A stretch of DNA of 64,000 nt, from positions 1,054,001 through 1,118,000 of the forward strand of contig NZ_CP065383.1 in assembly GCF_015775515.1 (NCBI RefSeq). Direction: 5' to 3'. Positions 4,537-55,586 of the stretch are shown here, piece after piece. The first letter of the stretch is position 1. Every line of letters begins with the position of its first letter. The DNA comes from Atribacter laminatus. Its GTDB lineage: Bacteria > Atribacterota > Atribacteria > Atribacterales > Atribacteraceae. A program made the position numbers and the translations under genes. The notes beneath the pieces were generated by a model. That model saw only the letters and a program-made list of their open reading frames with translations. It had not been told where the DNA came from and did no database searches.

Positions 4537-6537
4537 ATGAATGAAGAGTCATCAAAAGGGACTCCCCCTTTAATCCGGAAAAAAGGTGGGAGTAAAATGA
4601 AAAAATCTTTAGGACCGGTTGTGAATTTAGAGGAGCACGTTTACCCTGATTGGTGGCGAAGAATATTTAATTCAATTTATTTAAAAACCGATGCCGATAT
4701 TGTCGAAGACAAGGAAATAACCCGCAAAGAGGTTGATTTATTTACCGAAGCTGTTTCACTATCTCCCGATGACAAAATATTAGATCTTTGTTGTGGTCAG
4801 GGAAGGCACTCTATAGAGCTGGCACGACGAAACGTGAGAAATATCTATGCGTTAGACCGTTCTCATTACTTAATACAGAAAGCTAAAATTCAGACAAAAA
4901 AAGAAGGTTTATGTATCCAGTTTCGAGAAGGAGATGCGAGAAAACTTCCCTATTCAAGCGATTTTTTTGATGTGGTTCTTATATTAGGTAATAGTTTTGG
5001 ATATTTTGAAACTGTTCAAGATGATATGAAAATATTAAAAGAAATTTTCCGGGTTTTGAAGCCTTGGGGACGATTGTTAATTGATGTCGCCGATGGTGAG
5101 TTTTTAGCTGCCCATTATGAGCCCCGGTCATGGGAATGGATTGACAAAAAATATTTTGTTTGTCGAGAACGATCCCTTTCGGCTGATGGACATCGACTGA
5201 TATCTCGAGAAATAGTCAATCATGTGGATCGAGGAGTCATAGTTGACCAATTTTATGGAGAAAGACTCTATACAGAAGATGAACTTGGCCAACTCCTAAA
5301 AAATACTGGTTATAATAATGTTGTTTTTCATGGAAAGTTATTATCACATTCCCAAAGAAACCAAGATTTAGGCATGATGCAACAAAGAATTATCGTCAGT
5401 TCTCGAGTAAAAAAACCATGGACTACAATTAAAAAAAAGCTGCCACCAAGCATTCGACGAGTTGCTGTTGTATTCGGTGATCCAGGAAAGCCTGACATTT
5501 TAAAACCATCCTCAGTTTTTGATGATGATGATTTTTATACCATAGATCAATTAAAATCTGCTTTAAAAGAATTAAGAGAATATAGCTTTATTTATTTGGA
5601 TAATCATCAAAAATTGATAAATGATCTCATTTCCCAAAAGGGGAAAATTGACTTGGTTTTTAACTTGTGTGATGAGGGTTTTAACAATGATCCTCGAAAG
5701 GAATTGCATATCCCATCTTTCTTAGAAATGATGGGAATTCCGTATACCGGATCCGGACCTCAGTGTTTAGCCTATTGTTATGATAAATCATTGGTAAGAG
5801 GAATGGCTCGGGAAATGAACATTCCGGTTCCAAAAGCCTATTTTATTAAACCGGAAGACACCATATTTGATCTCATGATAAATTTTCCAGTCATAGTAAA
5901 GCCAAATTTTGGTGATGCCAGTTTTGGAATCACTCAAAAAAGTGTTGCTTATAAAATTGAAGAATTGATGAATGCTATATCCGATATCCGTAGCCAATTT
6001 GGTTATGATAAACCAATTTTAGTTGAAGAATTTATAACTGGTTCAGATCTTAGCCTGGGAATTATTGGAAATTCCCCCGAATCGTATATGGTACTTCCAT
6101 TGTTGGAAGAAGATTACTCAGAACTACCGGCGGAATTACCAAAAATTTGTGGATACGAAGCAAAGTGGCTTCCTGGCTCGCCCTATTGGAAAATTAAGTC
6201 AATTAAAGCTAAAATACCTGAAGAGACTAAGAAATTTATCATAGGAAGTTCGTTGAAACTTTTTGTGAGACTGGAATGTCGAGATTATGTTCGTTTTGAT
6301 TGGCGTTTGGATGATCAAGGGAATCCGCGACTATTAGAAGTGAACCCTAACCCTGGTTGGTGTTGGGACGGGCATTTAGCTAAAATGGCAAAATTGGCTG
6401 GAATATCATATGCTGAATTGTTAGAATCAATATTAAAAGCTGCTGACATTCGCTTAGGTTTTCGGACTATAAATGGGATAAAGAAAACATACAATAATGA
6501 ACATCAAACAACTGATCAAGAAATTCTTATAAAATAA
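4537..6537 (+). CDS. fusion protein: SAM-dependent methyltransferase + D-Ala-D-Ala-ligase-like ATP-grasp
   Basis: A 666-residue two-domain enzyme. The N-terminal part (about 1-290) is a class I methyltransferase with motif I LDLCCGQGRH at 82-91 and a methyltransferase-11-like core. The C-terminal part (about 306-666) is an ATP-grasp ligase resembling D-alanine-D-alanine ligase: N-lobe start RRVAVVFGDPG, substrate/ATP segment GIPYTGSGP, nucleotide-binding VIVKPNFGDASFGI near 451 and metal-binding EVNPNPGW near 598. The ATG at 4537 is preferred over an upstream in-frame ATG (4510) because GGAGGG lies between them, correctly spaced. An aldo/keto reductase follows 24 bp later, probably in the same operon. 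The domain pairing suggests ligation of an amino or carboxylic acid coupled to methylation; the substrate is unknown. Confidence 0.8.
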   Translation: MNEESSKGTPPLIRKKGGSKMKKSLGPVVNLEEHVYPDWWRRIFNSIYLKTDADIVEDKEITRKEVDLFTEAVSLSPDDKILDLCCGQGRHSIELARRNVRNIYALDRSHYLIQKAKIQTKKEGLCIQFREGDARKLPYSSDFFDVVLILGNSFGYFETVQDDMKILKEIFRVLKPWGRLLIDVADGEFLAAHYEPRSWEWIDKKYFVCRERSLSADGHRLISREIVNHVDRGVIVDQFYGERLYTEDELGQLLKNTGYNNVVFHGKLLSHSQRNQDLGMMQQRIIVSSRVKKPWTTIKKKLPPSIRRVAVVFGDPGKPDILKPSSVFDDDDFYTIDQLKSALKELREYSFIYLDNHQKLINDLISQKGKIDLVFNLCDEGFNNDPRKELHIPSFLEMMGIPYTGSGPQCLAYCYDKSLVRGMAREMNIPVPKAYFIKPEDTIFDLMINFPVIVKPNFGDASFGITQKSVAYKIEELMNAISDIRSQFGYDKPILVEEFITGSDLSLGIIGNSPESYMVLPLLEEDYSELPAELPKICGYEAKWLPGSPYWKIKSIKAKIPEETKKFIIGSSLKLFVRLECRDYVRFDWRLDDQGNPRLLEVNPNPGWCWDGHLAKMAKLAGISYAELLESILKAADIRLGFRTINGIKKTYNNEHQTTDQEILIK

Positions 6538-9245: not shown

Positions 9246-10159
9246 AGTAAGCCCTCCTTTTTCAGAAATGGGAGCCCAGCTGCTCCCATAACACTCGCTT
9301 TTCCTTTGAAAGCCCCAAGTTTCAAATCAGGAAGAGAAAACGACCAAAATTGATGTTTAACATAATAAGATTCAACAAGCTTGAGCCAGAAATCACCAGA
9401 CTCGGAAACCCCACCTCCTAAAATGATGGCTTCTGGGTCAAAGATTTGAGCAATATTTGCCAAACCAATTCCAAAATAATAAGCAGCTTGATGAACGATA
9501 TTGGTAAAAGGGGAAATATTTTCCTGAGCTTTTTGCATAATGGTAGCACCGCTCACCGGTTTTTTAGTCAAATGATAAGCTTCTCTTTCCATGGCACTTC
9601 CCGAAGAGAGAGCCTCGAGACAGCCGGCATTGCCGCATCGACAAAGAGGCCCACCAGGTTCAACAATAATGTGGCCTAATTCGGCTGAAATGCCTCTTGC
9701 GCCACGAATGAATTGCCTTTCCCAGATTAATGTTCCAGAAATTCCAGTACCAACACTTACATAGACCAAATTCTGGTATTCTTTCCCGGCTCCGAAAAAT
9801 ACTTCAGCGATGGCACCGCTCCGGACATCATGTTCTAAGTAAAACGGGTGATTGAGTTTCTCAGAAAGGATCTGAACTACCGGAACGTTTCGCCAGTTGA
9901 GATTTTCTGAATAAACCATAATGCCATGGTCTATATCAACCAATCCTGGACAAGCAATTCCCATTCCAACTAACTCATTCTGGTTTTTCAATTTTTTCTG
10001 AAGTAATTGTGTTAAAGAAACAATATCGTTTAAGACTTTTTCTACCCGTCTCTTTGGTTCTACTGGTATTTTTTCGTAGGCAAGAATATCCAGTTGTTCA
10101 TTTACTAATACTCCAGCTATTTTAGTTCCTCCTAAATCTATTCCAATTGAGTACGCCAA
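9242..10159 (-). CDS. ROK-family sugar kinase (glucokinase-like)
   Basis: A 305-residue cytoplasmic ROK kinase that phosphorylates a hexose such as glucose, N-acetylglucosamine or N-acetylmannosamine. It opens with the phosphate-binding YSIGIDLGGTKIAG, and carries the ROK signature with the zinc site: GHIIVEPGG followed by CRCGNAGCLEALSS. The start is a TTG at 10159 with GGGAGGAAG upstream; a TATAAT box at 10191-10196 (minus strand) would give a short leader. It is the first gene of a two-gene operon with the URO-D-like gene. A divergent nagA gene makes an amino-sugar role attractive, but this is inference. Confidence 0.9.
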   Translation of the reverse strand: MAYSIGIDLGGTKIAGVLVNEQLDILAYEKIPVEPKRRVEKVLNDIVSLTQLLQKKLKNQNELVGMGIACPGLVDIDHGIMVYSENLNWRNVPVVQILSEKLNHPFYLEHDVRSGAIAEVFFGAGKEYQNLVYVSVGTGISGTLIWERQFIRGARGISAELGHIIVEPGGPLCRCGNAGCLEALSSGSAMEREAYHLTKKPVSGATIMQKAQENISPFTNIVHQAAYYFGIGLANIAQIFDPEAIILGGGVSESGDFWLKLVESYYVKHQFWSFSLPDLKLGAFKGKASVMGAAGLPFLKKEGLL

Positions 10160-47048: not shown

Positions 47049-47126
47049 GGTGAGTGTAGCTCAATTGGTCAGAGCACTGGACTGTGGCTCCAGGGGTTGG
47101 GGGTTCAAGTCCCCTCACTCACCCCA
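47049..47126 (+). tRNA. tRNA-His (anticodon GTG), CCA encoded
   Basis: The cloverleaf folds as acceptor GTGAGTG/CACTCAC, a D-arm, anticodon stem CTGGA/TCCAG with loop CTGTGGC giving anticodon GTG, and a T-arm with TTCAAGT. The extra 5' guanine (position -1) diagnostic for tRNA-His is present at 47049. CCA is encoded at 47124-47126. All bases from 47057 to the end are duplicated at 55490, marking integration of the element that follows. Confidence 0.95.
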
Positions 47127-47153
47127 AAAGTTTTTTTAGAGCCTAAATATTAA
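47057..47153 (+). repeat. attachment-site repeat, left (attL)
   Basis: Perfectly identical to 55490-55586 over 97 bp. It starts at tRNA-His position 8, includes the rest of the tRNA with CCA, and extends 27 bp beyond, through a run of T and AGAGCCTAAATATTAA. The left copy completes the functional tRNA. Confidence 0.93.
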
Positions 47154-47188: not shown

Positions 47189-47198
47189 GAGTCCGTTG
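47189..47198 (+). promoter_or_regulatory. candidate integrase arm-binding site (left)
   Basis: GAGTCCGTTG, followed by CTCTTAGAAAGG, lies between attL and the integrase start. The same 10-mer occurs twice near attR (55371-55380 and 55401-55410) and in the same orientation. Position close to both ends of the element suggests arm-type sites for the integrase. Confidence 0.5.
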
Positions 47199-47219
47199 CT
47201 CTTAGAAAGGGGTTTTAAA

Positions 47220-48152
47220 ATGGGAAAAACATTAAAATTACTCACCATCTTAACCTGGGAAGAGTACCTATCAGAGTTTTTTATTGAAAAGAGGGTACAA
47301 GGGTGTAGGGAAAGAACTATTCAAGACTATAAACTTCATCTTGACCTCTTTTTTCGAACTTATCAAGGTGATATCGATAATTATCATTTGTTGTGTAATA
47401 AGGTGAAGGAATATTTCTCAACTTCTACTATCGCTCCGGCAACTTTCAACATTCGAAGAGCTTACCTCAAGTCCTTTTTTTCTTATCTGGTAAATGTTGG
47501 AGTTCTTCCTAAAAACCCCATTGACTTTTCCAAGAGAAAGGATGAGGGAAGGGCCCGGAATGTTTCCCAGGATGTTTTAATTGAGCTTTTAAAACTCCCC
47601 GATAAGAAAACCTTTGCCGGTCTTCGGGACTATTGCCTTATCCTCTTAACTTTGGATACTGGAATACGCCCCCAAGAGGCTTTATCACTCCTTCCCAAGG
47701 ATATAAACCTTTCCGGCCTGGAAGTTACCATTAGAAAAGAAATAGCCAAGACTAAAACCACTCGAACCGTTCCCATTTCACCACTTACCGCAACTCATAT
47801 TCAAAAATTATTGAAAGTACGCCTTTCTACTTGGCATGATAATATACCGGTTTTTTGTTCCTATGAGGGAAAACCCTTTCTTGAGTCTTCCTGGGCTCAC
47901 CGGTTGAAAAAGTACAGTTATCAACTTGGCCATTCCATAACTCCGTATTCCTTGCGCCATTCTTTTGCTCTTTTGTATCTCCGGAATGGTGGGAATGTGT
48001 TTACACTTCAAAGAACCATGGGGCACGCTGACTTGAACATGACCAAAAGGTATTTAGCATTAACTGGAGAAGACTTGAAGAGAGAGCATAAAACTGCTTC
48101 ACCAATAAATTTATTTAATAAAAAAAGGGTTAAGAATATAAACCCGAAATAA
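47220..48152 (+). CDS. int: tyrosine-type site-specific integrase
   Basis: A 310-residue tyrosine recombinase that would join attP to the tRNA-His attB. It has an N-terminal SAM-like core-binding domain (about 10-95) and a C-terminal catalytic domain with box I arginine in LDTGIRPQEAL, the H-x-x-R-like SLRHSFALLYL, the histidine of TMGHADLNMT and the nucleophile tyrosine in KRYLAL. ATG 47220 is preferred over the upstream TTG at 47196, because AAAGGGG precedes it and the TTG lies in the repeat at 47189. Adjacent to attL, as is usual. Confidence 0.93.
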   Translation: MGKTLKLLTILTWEEYLSEFFIEKRVQGCRERTIQDYKLHLDLFFRTYQGDIDNYHLLCNKVKEYFSTSTIAPATFNIRRAYLKSFFSYLVNVGVLPKNPIDFSKRKDEGRARNVSQDVLIELLKLPDKKTFAGLRDYCLILLTLDTGIRPQEALSLLPKDINLSGLEVTIRKEIAKTKTTRTVPISPLTATHIQKLLKVRLSTWHDNIPVFCSYEGKPFLESSWAHRLKKYSYQLGHSITPYSLRHSFALLYLRNGGNVFTLQRTMGHADLNMTKRYLALTGEDLKREHKTASPINLFNKKRVKNINPK

Positions 48153-48684: not shown

Positions 48685-48891
48685 TCACTTCTTCCTTTTA
48701 TTCTTTGGCTCTGTTTTCATTTTTAAAAACTGCTCTATATCCTCCTGGGTGGAATACCAAGCATTCCCAAGTTTAACCCCTCTCATCCGGCCAGTTGAAA
48801 AATAGGTTCTAATGGTTACATCAGTAATACCTAACATTTCTGATATTTCTTTAATATTGTAATATTCCTTCTTAAAAACAACTTTAGGCAT
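48685..48891 (-). CDS. excisionase-like helix-turn-helix DNA-binding protein
   Basis: A 68-residue MerR/excisionase-like (HTH_17) protein. The recognition region is YYNIKEISEMLGITDVTIRTYFSTGRMRGVKLGNAWYS, and the tail is strongly basic (KNKRKK). I choose the ATG at 48891 because GGGGTGAGGG precedes it; an in-frame ATG at 48909 is possible. Convergent to the integrase operon. It is the obvious candidate for directing excision of the element, though a regulatory role is equally possible. Confidence 0.75.
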   Translation of the reverse strand: MPKVVFKKEYYNIKEISEMLGITDVTIRTYFSTGRMRGVKLGNAWYSTQEDIEQFLKMKTEPKNKRKK

Positions 48892-48909
48892 ACCCTCACC
48901 CCATATCAT

Positions 48910-49407: not shown

Positions 49408-49656
49408 TTACAATACAATGGCTATTTTTTGCCCGGGTTTCAACTTAACATCATTAAAGTGTGGCCCGGGTGGCTCCGGTTCTTCTTCTTTTCTTAAAAG
49501 CCTTACTCTTATAATTACCGTTTCTCCGGCTGCTTCTTGTCGTGCCAATTCCTCGAATTCCTCGGGTATGCTGCTCCAGTCATATATTTTGACCTTGCTC
49601 CAGTCAAGGGGGGTGCTTTGGTTTTCCAGCTTTTTTATTCGTTCATTAATTCTCAT
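49408..49656 (-). CDS. RIKxLE small protein 4
   Basis: An 82-residue protein beginning MRINERIKKLENQ and continuing into an acidic middle (SIPEEFEELARQEAAGETVI) and a proline-rich end (KEEEPEPPGPHFNDVKLK). It overlaps the preceding small gene by 11 bp, as do other members of the group. The opening helix is shared with three neighbours. No known domain; function unknown. Confidence 0.65.
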   Translation of the reverse strand: MRINERIKKLENQSTPLDWSKVKIYDWSSIPEEFEELARQEAAGETVIIRVRLLRKEEEPEPPGPHFNDVKLKPGQKIAIVL

Positions 49657-49807
49657 GGCTTTCTATCCTTTCCTTTAAGGTATCTAATTGTTCCAATAGC
49701 TCTATAATTTCTTTTCCTCTTTGGGTAATTTCAAACTCGGCCAGGGTATTTTTTTCACCTATTTTGGTTTTTTTCTCCATTTGTTTTATTCTTTGTTTCA
49801 ATGTCAT
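49646..49807 (-). CDS. RIKxLE small protein 3
   Basis: A 53-residue, almost entirely helical, charged protein starting MTLKQRIKQMEKKTKIGEKN, then EFEITQRGKEIIELLEQLD. The KKTKIG stretch matches the following segment of small protein 2 (NKTKIG). Its stop overlaps the next start by 11 bp. Below normal gene-finder length, but overlap architecture and shared motif support it. Confidence 0.62.
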   Translation of the reverse strand: MTLKQRIKQMEKKTKIGEKNTLAEFEITQRGKEIIELLEQLDTLKERIESHEN

Positions 49808-49854
49808 TATTCTCACTCCGTTTAAAAGGCCAGGGGTTAACCCGGCCAGGGATA

Positions 49855-50034
49855 TTAGACTTTATCTACAAATGATACCCGGTAAACCTTAAACCCTTGA
49901 GCGCTCATTTCTTCGCTTTTGCTTTGGAGTTCTTCCCGAGTGGGAAAGTCACTTTCAAATAGAACTACCGGTTTAAATTCCCTTCCTATTTTGGTTTTAT
50001 TTTCCAGGCTCTTTATTCTATGCTTATAGTTCAT
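49855..50034 (-). CDS. RIKxLE small protein 2
   Basis: A 59-residue protein starting MNYKHRIKSLENKTKIG, then EFKPVVLFESDFPTREEL and ending RVSFVDKV. The C-terminal half looks like a small alpha/beta segment. Its start overlaps the previous gene's end by 11 bp. Function unknown. Confidence 0.62.
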   Translation of the reverse strand: MNYKHRIKSLENKTKIGREFKPVVLFESDFPTREELQSKSEEMSAQGFKVYRVSFVDKV

Positions 50035-50251
50035 GGTTCACCTTTGATATTTCTTCATTCCAAGTGTTTATAAGTTCCTGGGGTAGGTCTTCCCCCGGGT
50101 GCTTTGTTAAAAATTCTCGGGCTTTAAAGGCCATGGAAACCAAAACCGGAGAAGTAAAAATAAATGAGGGGAATACATCATTCTCTTTAGAGGGTGAAGG
50201 GGTTAGGAATACCTCCAGGCGTTTTATTCTTTGTTCAATGGCGCTCATCAT
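50024..50251 (-). CDS. RIKxLE small protein 1
   Basis: A 75-residue protein starting MMSAIEQRIKRLEVFLTPS. The remainder includes MAFKAREFLTKHPGEDLPQELINTW, predicted helical. It overlaps the terminase-small-like gene upstream by 17 bp and small protein 2 downstream by 11 bp. Function unknown; membership rests on the shared N-terminal motif. Confidence 0.66.
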   Translation of the reverse strand: MMSAIEQRIKRLEVFLTPSPSKENDVFPSFIFTSPVLVSMAFKAREFLTKHPGEDLPQELINTWNEEISKVNHEL

Positions 50252-50627: not shown

Positions 50628-50939
50628 TTACTCACTTTCAATTTTTATAGTCTTTAAAACGTCCTGGGCATATTTCATTCTTTTAATATTTTCTTGTCGT
50701 TCCGCTTCGTCAAAAACCCCTTCCCAAAACCAACGGGCATATTTACGCCATTCTTTCATGTCGTTATCCATTGCTCTTTCAGTAAGGAAGGTTATTAATT
50801 CCTGTTTATACTCCTTCACCAGGTTAATTAAGTCGGGGGTGAGTTTTTCTTCCTCACCCCTCAGCTTTATATCACCATCTTTGAGGTAAATTTCAATGTT
50901 GCGCTTTTCGAGTTCCTCGAGAAGTTCAAAGGTATTCAT
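50628..50939 (-). CDS. protein with TubC N-terminal docking-like domain
   Basis: A 103-residue protein. ELLEELEKRNIEIYLKDGDIK followed by LTPDLINLVKEYKQELITFL matches the TubC_N docking-domain pattern often found next to replication proteins of mobile elements. The C-terminal half is charged with WRKYARWFWEGVFDEAERQ. Its ATG (50939-50937) shares bases with the replicase stop (TAATG), so it is translationally coupled; the longer ORF from 50978 would be inside the replicase gene. Confidence 0.72.
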   Translation of the reverse strand: MNTFELLEELEKRNIEIYLKDGDIKLRGEEEKLTPDLINLVKEYKQELITFLTERAMDNDMKEWRKYARWFWEGVFDEAERQENIKRMKYAQDVLKTIKIESE

Positions 50940-53272
50940 TAAATTGTAAACTCCTTTCTCGTTATACCATCGCAACATTTAACATACTCACTTTTTAAAG
51001 GGCGTTCAGGAACTTTGGGTTCTTCCTCTTGCTCAAAATTAAAAGGCTCGATATCATCCAGGACTAATTCATTCTCGTTATGTTTAAAATTGAAGGGTTC
51101 AATGTCTGGTTTTTCTTCTTGCTCAAAATTAGGGGGTAGGTCTTCATCCTCGGGGTTGTTGTCCAAAATTAGATGTTGTTTTTTATCGGTCCTTTCCCTA
51201 TGATGGGGAGATATATGGTCCGATAAGTCGGAAACGGGCATGGTTGAGCGAATTATATCGGACCTGGTATGGTCCGATAAATTAGGACTATGGTCCGATA
51301 TATTTATTTTATCGGACCTAAAACCAGGATATCGGACCATGGTACTACCCGATATATTTTGCTCTACTAAGCTATTTATATTGGTATCGGGTAGTAAATT
51401 GCCCCCCACCATAGAAGGGTCCGATATATTTCTATTCCAAACTGAATAAATGGTACTTTTATTTTTACCCCTAACTTTGAGCTTCTTTTCCTTTTTCAGG
51501 CTTGACAACATTCTTCTTAGATATCGTTCATTGGTTGAAAAGGGTAATAAATTTTCAATATCTGCCCGGGTAAACTCAACACCTTGAAAATTATTTAAGA
51601 TGGTTTGCCAAAGTGCTTCTTTGTAGTTCTTTCCATCGGGGTTCTTATCAATGGTCATGGTTGTAAACTCTTGGTCGTAGTCATCATATTCATCCTCGAG
51701 GGTGAATGAGAATTGAGGGAATTCTTTCACCCATCCGGCCAGGTAATGAACCAAGTGTTTTTTCTCCCCGGTCTTCTCATTTACTTTGAGTTCAACCCCT
51801 ATTGAAGAACCGGCAAACCTCATTAATACCCCACTTCCTGAAATATCATGTTGGCTCATGGTCAAACCCTCTTGCTCTTTTCTGGGTTTCCTGGAATGGT
51901 AGAGAGTTACTAAAGCTATTTGGTACTTTTCGGCTAATTGGTTCAAATACAAGGCGATAGGCTTGGCGTTCTCTTCCTTGATAAGGTCGCTCAAGGTTAG
52001 GGAACTTAAAGAGTCCAGGAATACCAATTGAGCTTTAGAACTTTGGATGAACTTTTCAAGACGGGCTCTTCCTTTTTCGGTTGCTAAGTCAACATCAAGG
52101 CCGTCTTTGGCTAATTCGTTTTGGTAGAGGAAAAGAATGTTATCAGGGTTGTAATTCCATCTGGTTTTCCGCAACCGGCTCATGGGTTGGGTTTTGCTGG
52201 TATCGGCTAACACGTAGAGAATTCTTAAAGGGTGTTCCAGGTCGCTCACCCCATCAAGAACCGGACCACCCAAGGATACATCGCAGGCTATTTTCAAACT
52301 CAACCATGACTTACCGGTTTTAGGATACCCTACCAACCAAGTTAAATACCCTCTTGGGATAAGTCCGGGTATAGTCCAGGTAATTTCATCTTTCTCATTG
52401 GGGCTTGGTTTCCTGAAAAACTCAAGAGGGTTAAAGGTGAAAGTCTCTTTCTCTTTCCCAATGCCTAACCACTCCAAGGCTTTGTCTATTGCTTCTGGGT
52501 TCATGAGTTCTTTTAGCTTGGGAATTCCGGTAATGGGTTCTTTATCGCTTTTCTGGGAGGTATTCTTCACCTGGGCAAGCCTCATTCCTACTTCTTCATC
52601 TTGGGCTGCTGTGCATACCGCCTCAAGAAAAGTTCTGGTTTCCTCAATGGTGAACCCATGCTTTAGAAGAGTTCCGGCTAATGCCATAGAGGCCTCTTGT
52701 CTTGTACCTTGAGAAGGCCAATGCCAGGAGAAGAGAACCGCAGCGGCTAACATTGAAACCCGTCTTTTGAGGTCATCAGGGGCAAGAGTTACCGGTTCAA
52801 GGTTATTTACCCACTTATACTCTTCACCGTTAGGATGAATTGATGGTGGGAAAACTGTCTGTCTTCCTGTGCTTCGAAGTTCTACTATCATAACGCTTTC
52901 TTTGTCGTCTTCTCTTTCATCAATAGGAACCAATTCTTTTCTTATCGGGAACTGTTTAGTTTCAACTCCTGGGCAAGTATAGAGCTTGTGGCTTACTTTT
53001 TTTATGCCTTCACCATGACCAAAGGCCAGGGTATCGGGTAAAAAGAATTTTGCTATTTTAACCGCTGCTTTGGTATCAAGGTCAACGTCTACCAGGCCTT
53101 GAGAAGGAGAACCCAGGAGAACTCCAACGTTTGAGTTATTGTGGAAATGCTCCGGAATGTCACTTTCGCTAATACGTAAATTTTGCCAGTTATCCAATAT
53201 CGCTTTTTTGCTTCGAGGGGGGATGGGAATTATCTCCCACCCCCGGGAAATGTAATTAATTAGATGGTTCAT
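50939..53272 (-). CDS. replication protein: primase-polymerase (prim-pol) plus RecA-like helicase
   Basis: A 777-residue protein. Residues 1-165 form a bifunctional primase/polymerase domain with catalytic VDVDLD (62-66), SHKLY (H95) and ELRSTGRQ ... PPSIHP (131-147). A linker (about 190-240) resembles primase C-terminal helices. Residues 300-500 are a RecA/RepA-like ATPase with Walker A GYPKTGKS (315-322) and Walker B LVFLDSLSSL (D420). A winged-helix-like region (about 555-612) precedes a disordered tail (616-777) with duplicated DIEPFNF and NFEQEE motifs. The gene part encoding 616-696 carries the iteron array. This is the element's probable replication initiator. Confidence 0.88.
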   Translation of the reverse strand: MNHLINYISRGWEIIPIPPRSKKAILDNWQNLRISESDIPEHFHNNSNVGVLLGSPSQGLVDVDLDTKAAVKIAKFFLPDTLAFGHGEGIKKVSHKLYTCPGVETKQFPIRKELVPIDEREDDKESVMIVELRSTGRQTVFPPSIHPNGEEYKWVNNLEPVTLAPDDLKRRVSMLAAAVLFSWHWPSQGTRQEASMALAGTLLKHGFTIEETRTFLEAVCTAAQDEEVGMRLAQVKNTSQKSDKEPITGIPKLKELMNPEAIDKALEWLGIGKEKETFTFNPLEFFRKPSPNEKDEITWTIPGLIPRGYLTWLVGYPKTGKSWLSLKIACDVSLGGPVLDGVSDLEHPLRILYVLADTSKTQPMSRLRKTRWNYNPDNILFLYQNELAKDGLDVDLATEKGRARLEKFIQSSKAQLVFLDSLSSLTLSDLIKEENAKPIALYLNQLAEKYQIALVTLYHSRKPRKEQEGLTMSQHDISGSGVLMRFAGSSIGVELKVNEKTGEKKHLVHYLAGWVKEFPQFSFTLEDEYDDYDQEFTTMTIDKNPDGKNYKEALWQTILNNFQGVEFTRADIENLLPFSTNERYLRRMLSSLKKEKKLKVRGKNKSTIYSVWNRNISDPSMVGGNLLPDTNINSLVEQNISGSTMVRYPGFRSDKINISDHSPNLSDHTRSDIIRSTMPVSDLSDHISPHHRERTDKKQHLILDNNPEDEDLPPNFEQEEKPDIEPFNFKHNENELVLDDIEPFNFEQEEEPKVPERPLKSEYVKCCDGITRKEFTI
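51184..51426. repeat. iteron-like array of GGTCCGATA within the replicase gene
   Basis: The 9-mer GGTCCGATA occurs exactly at 51217-51225, 51271-51279, 51292-51300 and 51418-51426, and its complement TATCGGACC at 51256-51264, 51310-51318 and 51330-51338; near-copies are at 51184, 51347 and 51385. Central copies are spaced 15-21 bp. Two pairs form inverted repeats (51256-51279 and 51292-51318). Because copies occur in both orientations, the conservation is at DNA level. This looks like a binding array or origin for the encoded initiator. Confidence 0.7.
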
Positions 53273-53280
53273 TTCTCCTC

Positions 53281-53685
53281 CTAAAACAAACTTAATTGCT
53301 GTTTGTTCTCGACTTTAGGTTTATTTTTAATTGTGAATAATAGGGGTAAAGGCTGCTTTTCTACGGTTAATTCTCGAGGAATTTCCTTACTCTTGGAGGT
53401 TATCCAATAATTTAGAGGGAGGGCCAATTGCCGGCCATGCCCTCGGTCTGTGAAAATGTTTTTCTTCTTGAATTGCTCCACTGTGGTTGAATAGTACATT
53501 TTTTCTTCACGCTCAAATATTTGCAGGTATTTAATGCCTTCTTCAACCGCTTCATTAAAAATATCCTCATCAATGGCAATACCTGGGGGGGTTGTCAAGA
53601 AATGCTTACTTTTTGAACACCGCTTGAATAAAATATCGCCATCGTGTATAATACGGTATCCATATAGTTTAGAATTTACATTCAT
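53281..53685 (-). CDS. small protein with C-terminal sliding-clamp-binding motif
   Basis: A 134-residue protein ending in KQQLSLF, which fits the beta-clamp (DnaN)-binding consensus QLxLF at the extreme C-terminus. The rest (YGYRIIHDGDILFKRCSKSKHF; FNEAVEEGIKYLQIFEREE) has no recognised domain. It lies 8 bp upstream of the replicase and after the Cro-like gene, so a role in coupling element replication to the host replisome is plausible. Confidence 0.72.
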   Translation of the reverse strand: MNVNSKLYGYRIIHDGDILFKRCSKSKHFLTTPPGIAIDEDIFNEAVEEGIKYLQIFEREEKMYYSTTVEQFKKKNIFTDRGHGRQLALPLNYWITSKSKEIPRELTVEKQPLPLLFTIKNKPKVENKQQLSLF

Positions 53686-53731: not shown

Positions 53732-53908
53732 TTATTCGCTCCATTCGTTAATGGCCTTCTTGAGTAACATTTCAATTTCATCACTCATTTCAACTCTTCC
53801 GGTTTCCATAGCCGATAAATAAGCAGGGGTTATTCCAACTCTTTGCGCTAATTTCCATTGTGGAATGTTCCTGGTTATTCGGAGTATCTTAATTGCTCTT
53901 CCAGTCAC
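53732..53908 (-). CDS. Cro/CI-type (XRE) helix-turn-helix regulator, GTG start
   Basis: A 58-residue XRE-family protein: RAIKILRITRNIPQWKLAQR then VGITPAYLSAMETGRVEM forms the helix-turn-helix. The GTG at 53908 has AGGAGG 7 bp upstream. It is the first gene of the leftward operon and follows a strong terminator hairpin and repeats that may be its operators. Too short for a dimerisation domain, so more Cro-like than CI-like. Confidence 0.75.
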   Translation of the reverse strand: MTGRAIKILRITRNIPQWKLAQRVGITPAYLSAMETGRVEMSDEIEMLLKKAINEWSE

Positions 53909-55489: not shown

Positions 55490-55586
55490 TAGCTCAATTG
55501 GTCAGAGCACTGGACTGTGGCTCCAGGGGTTGGGGGTTCAAGTCCCCTCACTCACCCCAAAAGTTTTTTTAGAGCCTAAATATTAA
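55490..55586 (+). repeat. attachment-site repeat, right (attR) with truncated tRNA-His
   Basis: Exact copy of 47057-47153. The 5' acceptor strand preceding it is AAACCCCA, which cannot pair with CACTCAC, so this is not a functional tRNA. It marks the junction to the chromosome; the flank beyond is the original 3' neighbour of the tRNA gene. Confidence 0.93.

Follow-up and report, generated by a model that had tools for sequence, protein, structure and literature searches.

PICI-like phage satellites are integrated elements of about 7 to 20 kb (PMC13376191), and small satellite proteins that act on the small terminase (TerS) have been described, among them Ppi of the SaPIs (PMC5052747) and Rpp of the E. 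coli PICIs, which joins TerS and redirects packaging (PMC6739421). TerS in turn recruits the large terminase (TerL) through its C-terminus in lambda, P22, and RcGTA (PMC6739421, PMC7672466, PMC6854486), and in RcGTA this C-terminus binds the ATPase domain of TerL (PMC6854486). In PaP3, TerS and TerL form no stable association, and no such role was seen for the TerS tail (PMC7672466). The Javan satellites of Streptococcus have an integrase at one end, small regulators, a primase/helicase, a member of the TerS family considered here, and adjacent short genes that begin with a common helical motif (the tag). We found the same arrangement in Atribacter laminatus, within the window (the whole 64,000-nucleotide stretch of DNA analyzed). 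The element differs from the Javan satellites in the phylum of its host, in its 134-aa and TubC_N proteins, and in having four consecutive tag genes, compared to one or two in the Javan elements inspected. The proposed tag proteins resemble Ppi and Rpp as small satellite proteins that would act on TerS. However, Ppi blocks the TerS of the helper, whereas the tag genes are paired with the TerS of the element itself; and Rpp is a protein of about 144 to 153 aa with a MerR-like DNA-binding domain that binds the N-terminal domain of TerS, whereas the tag proteins have 53 to 82 aa, have no HTH match reaching the cutoff, and would bind the C-terminal tail through a short helix.

An exact direct repeat of 97 bp (47057-47153 on the left and 55490-55586 on the right) encloses the 8.4-kb element, whose features are as follows.

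47050..47126, plus strand: tRNA-His, the integration target (ARAGORN; left end repeat 47057-47153)
47196..48152, plus strand: tyrosine-type integrase adjoining the tRNA (318-aa open reading frame, integrase-like C-terminal core read from the sequence)
48685..48909, minus strand: excisionase-like MerR/HTH_17 protein (Pfam HTH_17, 7e-9; phrog_66 excisionase, 5.6e-7)
49408..49656, minus strand: tag protein 4 (gene 4), 82 aa, MRINERIKKLEN; tag plus tail VKIYDWSSIPEEFEEL..ETVIIRVRLL
49646..49807, minus strand: tag protein 3 (gene 3), 53 aa from the ATG, MTLKQRIKQMEKKTKIG; RIKQME, KKTKIG, and a helical-looking tail
49855..50034, minus strand: tag protein 2 (gene 2), 59 aa, MNYKHRIKSLENKTKIG; tag helix at residues 3-14, then strand-helix-strand
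50024..50251, minus strand: tag protein 1 (gene 1), 75 aa, MMSAIEQRIKRLE; overlaps the TerS stop codon
50235..50621, minus strand: predicted TerS with HTH, oligomerization helices, and acidic C-terminal coil IEDLEERLEALEKRMM (phrog_2538 terminase small subunit, 4.1e-12)
50628..50978, minus strand: TubC_N-like docking-domain protein (Pfam TubC_N, 5.4e-10)
50939..53272, minus strand: Prim-Pol plus AAA_25 replication protein (Pfam, 2.4e-18 and 1.9e-22)
53281..53685, minus strand: 134-aa conserved protein with no assigned function (best family match in Pfam/PHROG, E 0.03)
53732..53908, minus strand: Cro/CI-like small repressor (MTGRAIKILRITRNIPQWKLAQRVGITPAYLSAMETGRVEM, by eye)
55490..55586, plus strand: right end, 97-bp copy of the 3' part of tRNA-His (exact repeat)

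The element also encodes a 311-aa protein. Several of its genes recur elsewhere: the integrase has close homologs in loci L046 and L049, both of which also carry the same TerS family; the excisionase-like protein has a near-identical copy in the sister element L045; the Prim-Pol/AAA_25 protein has relatives in genomes G008 and G009; and homologs of the 134-aa protein lie upstream of replication genes in L006 and L045. The TubC_N-like protein was kept directly behind the satellite replication gene in the window, in L003/L006 (L006:2377-2745), and in L046 (7171-7467). The 8.4 kb between att-type repeats thus include an integrase as well as the element's own replication and regulation genes, and no structural gene or TerL was present among the ten element proteins searched: their Pfam and PHROG matches included no capsid, portal, tail, or TerL protein (the integrase, two small plus-strand open reading frames, and the Cro-like gene lay outside these searches). 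Because an integrase, an Xis-like protein, a primase-helicase, and a TerS are present, with no structural or TerL protein among those searched, we consider the element to be, very probably, a phage satellite with a TerS of its own. A helper prophage in the same genome was considered and was not supported, as no Terminase_3 or Terminase_6N match was found genome-wide. Genome G005 carries a TerL of a different phage type, and its TerS has no coil.

The HTH gene upstream of the four tag genes, which the initial annotation had described as phBC6A51-like, is best read from family and model matches as a TerS. It combines an N-terminal HTH, a helical oligomerization region, and the terminase family match. 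In a phage collection it matched 48 records, 46 of them from Streptococcus, and every match listed was a satellite phage; the best Streptococcus satellite homologs reached 3e-18. The best matches of its AlphaFold2 model (single chain, pLDDT 85) include phBC6A51 (PDB 2ao9), the SF6 DNA-binding domain, and PaP3 TerS, at modest Z scores of 7.1 to 7.5, and NV1 TerS is also among the structural matches at modest Z. Like 2ao9 and other ring-forming TerS proteins, the predicted protein consists of an HTH followed by helices; superposition on 2ao9 gave a Z of 7.5 over 87 residues (rmsd 5.8), and the aligned residues are about 17% identical. The literature examined describes no tag partner for phBC6A51 TerS. 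TerS homologs in L010 and L093 directly precede TerL; the satellite's own TerS does not. The protein ends in RLEALEKRMM, as annotated, and the tag of the downstream proteins resembles this C-terminal coil. It had been suggested that the small proteins were anti-host or packaging peptides. The probable identity of the HTH protein as a TerS gives good support to the packaging context; no evidence was found either for or against an anti-host role.

The four adjacent leftward open reading frames starting with R-I-K-x-(L/M)-E were located as first annotated. TerS overlaps gene 1 by 17 bp, gene 1 overlaps gene 2 by 11 bp, and gene 3 overlaps gene 4 by 11 bp; genes 2 and 3 are separated by 47 bp. In this gap (49820-49855) lies a palindromic sequence, GGGTTAACCC, flanked by two CCTGGCC-type arms, a possible hairpin or regulatory site. 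Gene 3 has 56 aa if read from an upstream GTG. The whole genome (3,101,225 bases) contains 17 copies of the DNA pattern encoding [RS]IKx(L/F)E, and 3 of these 17 fall inside 607 bp here (Poisson P ~8e-10 for three patterns in one 607-bp stretch, before correction for the number of stretches); the gene 3 copy is only a near match to the motif, since it reads RIKQME. Genes 1, 2, and 4 have homologs under purifying selection, with dN/dS of ~0.25, ~0.28, and ~0.24, respectively (gene 4, dN 0.10 and dS 0.43). These ratios are low and similar to that of the neighboring terminase gene (0.27), and therefore the three genes encode real proteins. For gene 3, a search for a full-length homolog found none, and its match to the gene 2 profile is limited to its first 18 residues. 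Genes 1 and 3 have near-identical DNA around the tag (AACAAAGAATAAAAC).

To determine how broadly the pairing of TerS with a tag gene is conserved, we examined the genes behind TerS in related loci. A frame with a tag start directly follows TerS in 7/7 loci of the phylum whose TerS bears a coil (the window and L045 to L050). Two of these are further copies of the TerS gene in the same genome, namely, L045 in the sister element and L046 with other neighboring genes. In L045 the gene after TerS (MNTIERRLKNLES) is 46% identical to gene 1 and holds the same position. The gene after TerS in L047 (MNFKHRIKSLER) shares 64% identity with gene 2, and farther along, behind the same type of TerS, lies MKLEPRIKKLED, 83% identical to gene 4. 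Tag starts in L049 and L050 read MKLKERLDKLEG and MGIKARLKRLEQ, and those of L046 (QTRLEKLENWK) and L048 (MGKDLKKRVDEVSKVV) were added by reading all frames behind TerS. The Streptococcus satellites show the same layout, with tags LKKRVDKL, IKNRLNKL, IKKRLAKL, and others; the tag gene adjoins TerS in most of those inspected and in some gut contigs, and some Streptococcus satellites have further tag genes upstream of TerS. Across 30 loci, not all of them independent, a strict form of the motif was present in 8/30 next genes and in 0/241 other genes of the same loci, and a broad form in 15/30 next genes compared to 11/241 control genes. Distant TerS relatives without the coil (L071 and L073) have no tag neighbor, and in two loci (L056 and L062) the TerS tail is coil-like yet is not followed by a clear tag gene downstream. 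No TerS was detected when genomes in two other phyla were scanned. Weak matches to genes 1 and 2 in six genomes (G013, G019, G022, G027, G032, and G045; E 0.005 to 0.06) were treated as chance. A common helical tag beside homologs of the HTH gene is thus conserved in the phylum, in Streptococcus satellites, and in some gut contigs. The initial annotation had named a lack of conservation of the motif or the reading frames in related elements as the result that would speak against it; the comparison was run, and conservation was found.

The composition of these neighborhoods varies. L045 has a decayed copy of gene 2 behind gene 1 (9270-9460, NYKLRVKQLEKRIK...), which is interrupted by an in-frame stop and lacks a clear start codon, and carries a type II methyltransferase (1e-122) and a restriction enzyme (3e-147) behind the TerS and tag genes (L045:10041-12208, ~C1:1529040-1531207). 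L047 encodes a 103-aa protein (1275-1586) between its gene 2 and gene 4 homologs, in the slot held by gene 3 in the window. Comparison of L047 with the window shows turnover within the tag-gene cluster. Long coiled-coil-looking proteins of ~190 to 280 aa adjoin the TerS and tag genes in L052 (3552-4217), L053 (2667-3500), L034 (2221-2823), and L058 (3343-3951); they occur in gut contigs and Streptococcus satellites, none was seen in the window element, and they are candidate capsid-remodeling or scaffold-like factors. In locus L072 of the distant genome G171 (5340-6387), a TerS-like gene is followed by a gene whose 227-aa product has SALKKRLEGLEQRL close to the N-terminus, which reads as a tag on a larger protein.

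The four proteins had been described as sharing the tag and then diverging into different tails. The shared tag was borne out, but divergence does not hold as a rule, as the tails of genes 2 and 4 look related. These two genes are probably paralogs, since they align over 53 columns at 30% identity. The AlphaFold2 model of gene 2 (single chain, pLDDT 75) places a helix at residues 3-14, a strand at 21-26, a helix at 33-45, and a strand at 48-53, and the tails of the Streptococcus tag proteins are likewise mostly strand-helix-strand-like. The tails of genes 1 and 3 lie outside this class: that of gene 1 belongs to another class, common to the sister element L045, and that of gene 3 looks mostly helical. 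Genes 2 and 3 have (K/N)KTKIG in common. Searches of the tag proteins against Pfam, PHROG, NCBIfam, and PADLOC returned only weak, chance-like matches; a winged-HTH match of gene 3 was below threshold (E 0.0018) and located on its coil. No solved structure matched a profile built from the Streptococcus tag proteins, and no viral contig scanned matched gene 1.

We also compared the charge of the tag with that of the TerS coil. Over 20 loci, the mean charge was −2.9 for the coils and +2.7 for the tags, and in nearly every pair the coil was acidic and the tag basic. The most acidic coils (−6) lie beside the most basic tags (+5 and +6) (Spearman −0.48, P 0.03, with coil and tag windows chosen by hand and related loci not independent). 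Control N-termini were mildly basic too (mean +1.1). Because of these control values and the hand-chosen windows, we regard the charge evidence as supportive rather than conclusive. It is plausible, on this pattern, that all tags bind one surface.

Links to TerL came from phage loci. In L010 the gene after TerS is TerL itself, with an N-terminal tag (DKLEQRIAALE); related TerL proteins that are paired with other types of TerS start without a tag. In one phage, present in two contigs (L095 and L098), the order is an HTH-less TerS-like protein with the same coil, a 46-aa tag protein ending in KIIIINDIPRG, and an untagged TerL. The TerS of RcGTA (gp1) likewise has no HTH and has a coiled coil; unlike the L095 protein, it is a single protein without a separate tag partner. 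The other-type TerS partners of that TerL family have a strand-plus-acid C-terminus like that of the 46-aa tag protein in 7/8 cases, as judged by eye (VTIIDDIPDTETE, VQFNDDIT, VQLVDDIN, VIIVDDS, and others), and this motif was present in 0/20 aligned members of the window's TerS family. We infer that the motif is a TerL-docking motif. The C-termini of gene 2 (VYRVSFVDKV) and gene 4 (VIIRVRLLRKEEE) resemble it only loosely; if these two genes encode adaptors, C-termini differing from the Firmicutes phage motif might be expected and would fit other helpers.

We tentatively propose, at a little short of an even chance, that small partner proteins dock on the TerS tail by means of the tag and probably act as adaptors to a helper TerL. 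The four genes would encode partners of the satellite's TerS. The tag would be a short basic amphipathic helix at the start of each protein and would pair with the TerS tail, an acidic coiled coil, so that small tails would be displayed around the TerS ring. The strand-helix-strand tails of genes 2 and 4 would most likely supply the contact to the helper TerL, a contact absent from the sequence of this TerS family and provided here in trans, and the packaging motor of the helper would thereby be directed onto the DNA of the satellite. With several adaptors, several helpers could be served. Binding of the tag to the tail, contact with TerL, and the benefit of several copies are all inferred from the comparisons above.

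Other functions could account for parts of this pattern. The tag proteins might bind the TerS of a helper phage through its coil and block helper packaging, much as phage packaging is prevented by SaPI Ppi, which binds phage TerS (PMC5052747). Their genes follow terS in a satellite, a position often occupied by accessory genes (PMC13376191), and multiple copies would suit several helpers here as well. We nevertheless judge such interference unlikely: the tag partner adjoins and often overlaps the satellite's own TerS gene, the one phage TerS detected within the same genus (L108) shows no RLExLE coil on inspection by eye, and a blocker makes little sense inside the TerS-TerL operon of a phage, where the L095 tag protein lies. 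The tagged TerL of L010 also argues against pure interference, and it also counts against a model in which the tag helices become part of the TerS ring or tail bundle and alter its assembly or choice of DNA site, with no contact to TerL. Rpp sets a precedent for the latter, as its heterocomplex with TerS redirects packaging (PMC6739421); in addition, the tag and the TerS tail are similar enough in pattern to co-assemble, and gene 3 encodes scarcely more than a helix. The tags have no DNA-binding domain, however, and Rpp acts through the N-terminal domain of TerS, and tail domains conserved under selection would be needless for a pure coil, so that mixing of this kind appears improbable.

Many phage proteins have a short coil at the N-terminus, and the tag could be one such self-associating coiled coil, duplicated locally at the head of unrelated accessory (moron) genes. 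Near-identical tag DNA in genes 1 and 3 fits local duplication. Against this explanation, which we also hold to be quite unlikely, stand the absence of the strict motif from all 241 other genes of the same loci, the recurrence of the tag next to one TerS family in both Streptococcus and this phylum, and the opposite charges of the tag and the TerS tail.

The proposal that tag proteins serve as adaptors between the satellite's TerS and a helper TerL extends to a broader one, which we consider possible but rather doubtful: a three-part terminase, in which the TerL-contact motif of TerS has moved to separate adaptors, several of which are interchangeable, such that one ring could recruit the motors of different helpers, with some phages tagging TerL directly. 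To our knowledge, there is no general explanation of how satellites connect their own TerS to an unrelated helper TerL, and no such tag or adaptor is described in the openly accessible literature that we searched. If the proposal is correct, the modular tag would provide (i) a simple rule for helper range, (ii) a function for tiny genes left unnamed by the family libraries searched, and (iii) a portable pair of TerS and partner. The element also extends the range of probable phage satellites carrying such a packaging module to a phylum distant from Streptococcus.
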